From Ignavibacteriota bacterium (GTDB lineage: Bacteria > Bacteroidota > Ignavibacteria > Ignavibacteriales > Melioribacteraceae): 64,000 nucleotides of DNA. The DNA lies in assembly GCA_002698995.1 (NCBI GenBank), contig PAAX01000015.1:1-64000 (forward strand). The letters are read 5' to 3'. Every line of letters begins with the position of its first letter. The first letter of the stretch is position 1. The notes beneath the pieces were generated by a model. It was not told where the DNA came from. It ran no database searches and saw only the letters and a list, made by a program, of their open reading frames with translations. This document shows positions 278 through 752 of this stretch, one piece after another. A program made the position numbers and the translations under genes.

Positions 278-332
278 ATTGATGATTTGTTTTTTACAAT
301 AAATGTTATTGAAATAAATGAACAAAAAGTTG

Positions 333-419
333 CGGAAAGAGAGGGATTCGAACCCTCGATACCCTTGCGAGTATACTTGCTTTCCAGGCAAGCCAGTTCA
401 ACCACTCCTGCACCTTTCC
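333..419 (-). tRNA. tRNA-Ser(GGA)
   Basis: An 87-nt class II tRNA on the minus strand. The acceptor arm GGAAAGG pairs with TCTTTCC, followed by discriminator G. The anticodon stem CTTGC/GCAAG closes loop CTGGAAA with anticodon GGA. A long variable arm typical of tRNA-Ser is present, and the T-arm GAGGG-TTCGAAT-CCCTC is perfect. CCA is not encoded. It reads UCC/UCU serine codons. Confidence 0.95.
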
Positions 420-483: not shown

Positions 484-532
484 TGCGGAAAGAGAGGGAT
501 TCTCCCGAAGGGATGCCAATGGCAGAACCCTC
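484..532 (-). repeat. tRNA-Ser 3'-end copy with twin-hairpin insert (copy 1)
   Basis: This stretch copies the acceptor 3' strand and T-arm of the neighbouring tRNA-Ser genes, but the T-loop is split by 22 bp at 503-524. The insert forms two tiny hairpins, TCCC-GAA-GGGA and TGCC-AAT-GGCA. The sequence on each side of the insert (ggattc before, gaaccctc after) matches the intact tRNA exactly. The D-arm, anticodon arm and 5' acceptor strand are absent, so it is not a functional tRNA. Confidence 0.75.
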
Positions 533-580
533 AGGAAATTAAAATCGTAGAGTAAATATTTCCAAAATCAAATTAGTCCA

Positions 581-630
581 TGCGGAAAGAGAGGGATTCT
601 CCCAAAGGGATGCCTATGGCAGAACCCTCG
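581..630 (-). repeat. tRNA-Ser 3'-end copy with twin-hairpin insert (copy 2)
   Basis: A second copy of the same element lies 97 bp further on in the same orientation. The 22-bp insert at 600-621 sits at the identical T-loop position. Both 4-bp stems are unchanged from copy 1, while both loops differ (AAA for GAA, TAT for AAT). Stem conservation with loop drift suggests that the hairpins matter, or that copying was recent. Flanks beyond the T-arm diverge. Confidence 0.75.
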
Positions 631-664
631 GAAAATTAATATTTGCTGAATTAGACTAATACAG

Positions 665-752
665 CGGAAAGAGAGGGATTCGAACCCTCGGATCGGCAAT
701 GCCGATCAACGGTTTTCGAGACCGCCCCGTTCAACCACTCCGGCATCTTTCC
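665..752 (-). tRNA. tRNA-Ser(CGA)
   Basis: An 88-nt class II tRNA on the minus strand. The acceptor GGAAAGA pairs perfectly with TCTTTCC, then discriminator G. The anticodon loop CTCGAAA gives anticodon CGA for UCG codons. A GATCGGC-ATT-GCCGATC variable arm and a T-arm identical to the tRNA-Ser(GGA) gene follow. CCA is not encoded. Confidence 0.95.

Follow-up and report, generated by a model that had tools for sequence, protein, structure and literature searches.

Near the start of the window, by which we mean the whole stretch of 64,000 nucleotides analysed here, lie two truncated tRNA-Ser copies, each broken in its T-loop by a 22-bp double hairpin. The reading we favour, with some reserve, is that this array belongs, as an ORF-less case, to a family of chromosomal, SegB-like tRNA-parasitic or homing units bounded by a palindrome-disrupted tRNA copy. 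In a full unit of the family, an intact tRNA gene is accompanied by a short GIY-YIG gene and by a direct, partial copy of that tRNA with stem-loops broken by palindromes. The loci described below display this architecture, its tandem arrays, the regular disruption of the copies and a match between nuclease clade and tRNA species. By comparison with them, the array in the window is probably the stripped remains of a selfish element living on tRNA genes. The features of the locus are as follows.

332 to 419, minus strand: intact tRNA-Ser(GGA) (ARAGORN and Rfam)
485 to 532, minus strand: disrupted 3' copy 1 of tRNA-Ser, acceptor 3' strand and T-arm (sequence; alignment with the intact tRNA-Ser genes)
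503 to 524, plus strand: 22-bp double hairpin TCCC-GAA-GGGA TGCC-AAT-GGCA in the T-loop at TTC^GAA (sequence; predicted three-way junction)
533 to 581, no strand: AT-rich spacer of 49 bp between copy 1 and copy 2, without an ORF (sequence)
582 to 631, minus strand: disrupted 3' copy 2 of tRNA-Ser (sequence; alignment with the intact tRNA-Ser genes)
600 to 621, plus strand: 22-bp double hairpin TCCC-AAA-GGGA TGCC-TAT-GGCA in the T-loop at TTC^GAA (sequence)
632 to 663, no strand: AT-rich spacer of 32 bp between copy 2 and tRNA-Ser(CGA), without an ORF (sequence)
664 to 752, minus strand: intact tRNA-Ser(CGA) (ARAGORN and Rfam; alignment)

The first-pass annotation had described two tRNA-Ser tails between intact tRNA-Ser genes, sharing one insertion point, and the coordinates bear this out: the two inserts start 97 bp apart at the identical T-loop point, TTC^GAA. 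In copy 1 the tRNA 3' part (485–502) is followed by the insert TCCCGAAGGGATGCCAATGGCA (503–524) and then by GAACCCTC (525–532), and copy 2 has the same layout, with a 3' part at 582–599, the insert TCCCAAAGGGATGCCTATGGCA at 600–621 and GAACCCTCGG at 622–631. Read along the minus strand, the order is tRNA-Ser(CGA), the 32-bp spacer, the tail at 631–582, the 49-bp spacer, the tail at 532–485 and tRNA-Ser(GGA), and in this sense both inserts read TGCC-nnn-GGCA TCCC-nnn-GGGA. Which of the two genes gave rise to the tails? About 27 nt of the tRNA-derived parts of both tails align identically with the intact gene, and the flank TCCGAGGG of copy 2 has its best match in tRNA-Ser(CGA), which is probably the cognate gene of both copies and lies upstream of them in the tRNA sense. 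The double-hairpin pattern matches twice in the window against 0.02 matches expected from shuffles, and the 201-bp locus, used as a DNA query against the whole genome, found only itself. The array holds no GIY-YIG gene, as neither the 49-bp nor the 32-bp spacer has an ORF; the spacer at 632–663 is the position where this gene sits at other loci. Within positions 1–300, the left end of the window is a near-repeat of the end of contig C12, where a RAYT (Y1) transposase gene has its 5' region (L183); it is therefore probable that a RAYT gene adjoins the window on its left. REP-like hairpins follow the near-repeat (gccgtccgat.., gggctttagccc, ggactaaagtcc, gttggctgaagccaac).

Is the insert a local oddity or a family? 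It is a true family. Among the genomes compared, which are mostly MAGs, the 22-mer with at most one mismatch occurs in 33 of 97 relatives (the reversed-pattern control gave one match), and of 395 genomes sampled across the phylum 41 hold the exact 22-mer, with no match for the reversed control. In its own 4.23-Mb genome the exact sequence is confined to the window locus, but variants are found on two further contigs, one with a fully compensated second stem (TGGC/GCCA) inside a REP-like hairpin, and on the other two TTCC/GGAA forms. The T-loop form was recovered in 33 stretches of a GTDB genome scan, from Melioribacteraceae, Ignavibacteria, Balneolaceae and other Bacteroidota. The description of the insert as two hairpins with constant stems and variable loops holds across the family, with one refinement: the two 11-nt hairpins keep their 4-bp stems paired while both sides change (TTCC/GGAA, CTCC/GGAG, TGGC/GCCA, TGAC/GTCA, TACC/GGTG), and such two-sided changes are found in both stems. 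Of the T-loop inserts, 35 are 22 nt long, two 23 nt and two 44 nt; the 44-nt inserts, with four successive 11-nt hairpins, were seen in tRNA-Lys tails of genome G089 (L202). Complementarity from one hairpin loop to the other is weak (139 pairs against 127 expected, p ~0.03), and the tails are predicted to fold as a three-way junction or, with other loop variants, as one longer hairpin. The suggestion of a small palindromic element in tRNA-like sequence has likewise held up, since the 22-mer sits at TTC^GAA or TTC^AAA, in both orientations and in many genomes, in 3' copies of Ser, Lys, Glu, Pro, Thr, Cys, Arg, Val, Asn, Gly and Phe tRNAs. At one locus (L063:101-122 and 501-522) a second 22-nt double hairpin, of the TCCC/CTCC type, occupies the anticodon loop of a broken tRNA-Ser copy that also carries a T-loop insert.

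How general is the breaking of tRNA copies? Loci chosen by the 22-mer would bias the answer, so the question was put to the 30 best-scoring tRNA loci of each of five genomes, 166 tRNAs in all, and all 25 tRNA-tail copies detected there have a palindrome in the T-arm. The single uninterrupted tail (L036) comes from the biased sample, and the sampled tRNA loci of genome G043, which lacks the 22-mer, showed no tails. Tails are direct repeats of the intact cognate gene, usually placed tens to a few hundred bp downstream of it; broken copies span at least a dozen tRNA species, and the set of tRNAs with tails differs from genome to genome. The longest block identical between a partial copy and its cognate tRNA is 14–26 nt; a single copy reaches 38. 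Among the palindromes that break these copies, the 22-bp double hairpin is the commonest. Others, for example TCCCGA..TCGGGA and TCCGCC..GGCGGA, interrupt 5' (head) copies and anticodon arms as well, some copies associated with GIY-YIG genes are interrupted outside the T-loop (L325, L329), and long GC-rich palindromes are present in 12 of 36 partial copies against 1.9% of control windows. A reading of the inserts as tRNA introns was rejected, because their removal restores a full tRNA in none of the copies. In two Balneolaceae tRNA-Asn tails (L039, L067) an inverted copy of the variable region and T-stem (aacgaccgatccgatcggtcgtt) directly precedes the tail, as template switching would leave.

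What lies between an intact tRNA and its tail? At several loci the spacer contains an ORF of 80–100 codons encoding a GIY-YIG endonuclease of about 85 aa, in the order intact tRNA, GIY-YIG gene, broken tRNA copy; such genes were found for Ser, Lys, Asp, Asn, Pro, Leu and Met tRNAs. All 15 sampled proteins match PF01541 and share invariant residues of the catalytic type (Y, Y/G, R, H, E), as judged from sequence; their nearest solved relatives are UPF0213 proteins, followed by SLX1. Adjacency was assessed on the top-scoring PF01541 loci, taken regardless of tRNAs, with the sister subfamily as the only baseline: 15 of 18 subfamily-B genes have an intact tRNA no more than 170 bp away, but not one of about 11 subfamily-A genes does. 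The nuclease clade tracks tRNA identity, and does so across bacterial families. The nuclease tree needs 11 label changes for 11 tRNA identities, whereas 500 shuffles gave a mean of 22.7 and a minimum of 18; the clades for Asn, Ser(UGA), Lys and Leu are well supported, and those for Asn and Ser(UGA) mix hosts of Melioribacteraceae and Balneolaceae type. Units also form tandem arrays, one with five 450-bp units on tRNA-Leu, in which the T-arm of every copy contains CCTGCCTGCCGTCAGGCAGG (L358), and another, a mirror form with three 317-bp units on tRNA-Pro, in which the broken parts are 5' halves and lie upstream of the intact tRNA (L359). At two loci (L331, L350) the GIY-YIG frame runs on into the next tRNA copy or tRNA gene, so that the C-termini appear to be partly tRNA-encoded. 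The genome that holds the window has subfamily-B genes next to tRNA-Cys, tRNA-Met and tRNA-Arg, and the tail at the tRNA-Met locus is broken by a palindrome. The window array itself lacks an endonuclease gene, and therefore its descent from a full unit rests on analogy with these other loci; many ORF-less arrays were found.

The closest known system is the free-standing GIY-YIG homing endonuclease SegB of T-even phages (T4, T6). Its small gene adjoins tRNA genes, and the enzyme drives amplification of the tRNA–nuclease segment in tandem through recombination (PMC13096335). The present units share this arrangement but differ in being chromosomal (no close homologue of the nuclease was found in the phage or plasmid records searched), in being bounded by palindrome-disrupted partial tRNA copies and in covering many tRNA species, each with its own clade of nucleases of about 85 aa, for which cleavage is inferred. 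How could such a unit work? The nuclease would act as a free-standing homing endonuclease on the gene of its cognate tRNA. Repair of the break would duplicate part of the tRNA, and the unit could then spread or be amplified in tandem, as with phage SegB. A copy would survive only once a palindrome has broken its T-arm or anticodon arm, which may cut its identity with the working tRNA to about 15–25 bp, too short for efficient recombination, and may also or instead destroy the cleavage site; an unbroken direct repeat would recombine with the tRNA and the unit would be deleted. Exact blocks of no more than 26 bp, with the one exception of 38, are consistent with the idea of recombinational loss. 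Protection from cleavage alone fails to explain how the tRNA is spared, since the intact gene has the same T-arm. The window array would be an ORF-less derivative, possibly served in trans by nucleases encoded at other places in the genome. A wider version of this proposal, for which the chances seem to us slightly below even, is that selfish chromosomal units occur throughout the phylum, with nucleases of about 85 aa whose lineages correspond to tRNA species, that they home into tRNA genes and that their partial copies are silenced by palindromes, the insertion being an active or selected 'locking' against cleavage or recombinational loss.

Could the double hairpin instead be the only mobile part, moved for example by a RAYT/HUH transposase acting on single strands, or as RNA, into TTC^ sites for which tRNA tails are merely tolerant targets? 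As an account of the whole locus this is unlikely. The 123 copies of the 22-mer reduce to 76 distinct contexts, most of them outside tRNA copies and mostly after TTC- or TTT-like sequence, so that on the favoured reading, too, the double hairpin counts as a very small mobile or copied sequence in its own right. Its insertion is exact, without target duplication, and filled tRNA and REP copies adjoin empty ones, the tRNA copies being duplicates rather than alleles. Occurrences outside tRNAs include one in the window's own genome (L003) and one in the loop of a REP that adjoins a RAYT gene and has empty REP copies as neighbours (L182); in genome G082 (L149–L162) the 22-mer is a fixed module of many dispersed repeats of about 75 bp (AAGTCTCTCTC..GAGAGAGATTA[22-mer]GAGAGAGTT), and related repeats occur in G070, G062 and G022. 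In 58 of the 76 contexts a C stands at −1, so that the left junction reads C^T. TnpAREP enzymes cut at CT or CA (PMC8266576), which makes mobilisation by RAYT possible. The 22-mer resembles REP/RAYT systems (TnpAREP; GTAG and CGTC superfamilies) in being short and palindromic, in this junction and in its occasional nesting in REPs. It differs in consisting of two 4-bp hairpins, in lacking an unpaired GTAG or CGTC tag at the foot of the hairpin (the insert is flanked by TTC and GAA) and in not lying systematically beside RAYT genes: among the copies listed, only one, nested in a REP, is near a Y1 transposase gene. Y1 genes are present in 85 of the 97 relatives but absent from three that carry the insert, and dependence on RAYT was rejected on this ground. 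General targeting of hairpin loops was rejected as well, the folding test giving 10 of 52 against ~19% of control positions; enrichment of the 22-mer in hairpin loops outside tRNAs is weak, with long stems (≥8 bp) around the 22-mer in three cases against 0.27 expected. Independent movement of the 22-mer predicts neither that every one of the 25 surveyed tails is interrupted nor that other palindromes serve the same purpose.

Elements of comparable size and shape have been described elsewhere. Cyanobacterial small dispersed repeats (SDR) are reportedly 21–27 nt long and hairpin-forming, with compensatory changes and exact insertion, also inside other repeats (Elhai and colleagues, 2008). The 22-nt insert is like them in each of these respects and differs in phylum, in sequence and in its strong tie to tRNA copies and GIY-YIG units. 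The tyrT (rtT) repeats of E. coli, tandem units that each begin with a tRNA-Tyr 3' end downstream of the intact tRNA, recall the arrangement of the tails; we know of no T-loop hairpin interruption or nuclease gene in them, nor of any association of mitochondrial double-hairpin elements with tRNA tails. Those elements, known from fungal mitochondria alongside the repetitive hairpin elements of sponge mtDNA, likewise join two adjacent hairpins into a mobile-looking unit, but they are longer and organellar (PMC2800124). SDRs are elsewhere cited as 'very small mobile repeated elements' (PMC3116915).

The tails had also been proposed to be attachment-site remnants, in the present terms the traces of islands or phages driven by an integrase. 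Direct-orientation duplicates of tRNA 3' parts downstream of an intact tRNA do look like attL and attR, but we consider this origin very improbable. Most copies lie tens to a few hundred bp from their intact cognate tRNA; in the loci read, these short spacers contain no integrase and at many loci hold a GIY-YIG gene. No single integrase specificity would explain a dozen or more tRNA species, and the mirror form at L359, whose 5' heads lie on the upstream side of the tRNA, speaks against it too. Spread by phage was rejected: the matches in 12 viral contigs are about what chance would give for a pattern of 16 fixed bases, by estimate, and are mostly in unrelated contexts. A function as RNA, in which the transcribed tail forms a three-way junction or long hairpin that regulates tRNA maturation, termination or the nuclease mRNA, would suit the conserved stems and free loops, the modelled folding of the tails, better than that of shuffles (z −1.6 to −3.4), and some arrays with identical tRNA parts but differing spacers. 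It is nevertheless improbable, as the tRNAs that bear tails vary by genome, many tails lie beyond a terminator (L037, L050, L067) and the palindromes differ between copies. Finally, the doubt that the copies might be an assembly artefact, or chance, had a natural basis in a window that begins at a contig end near repeats. Its probability is negligible: dozens of independent assemblies, among them the single- or few-contig genomes G067 and G069, have the structure at this very point of the T-loop, so it is no assembly artefact, and chance would supply only the 0.02 matches given above.

Units of tRNA and GIY-YIG gene in bacteria were not found described in the open-licence literature searched. 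If the reading as tRNA-homing units is true, homing endonucleases linked to tRNAs would be known from bacterial chromosomes as well as from phages, and a scattered class of 'tRNA pseudogene tails', along with short palindromes, would have an explanation. The units would also provide a natural system in which target specificity, that is, the tRNA species, can be read from the phylogeny of the nuclease.
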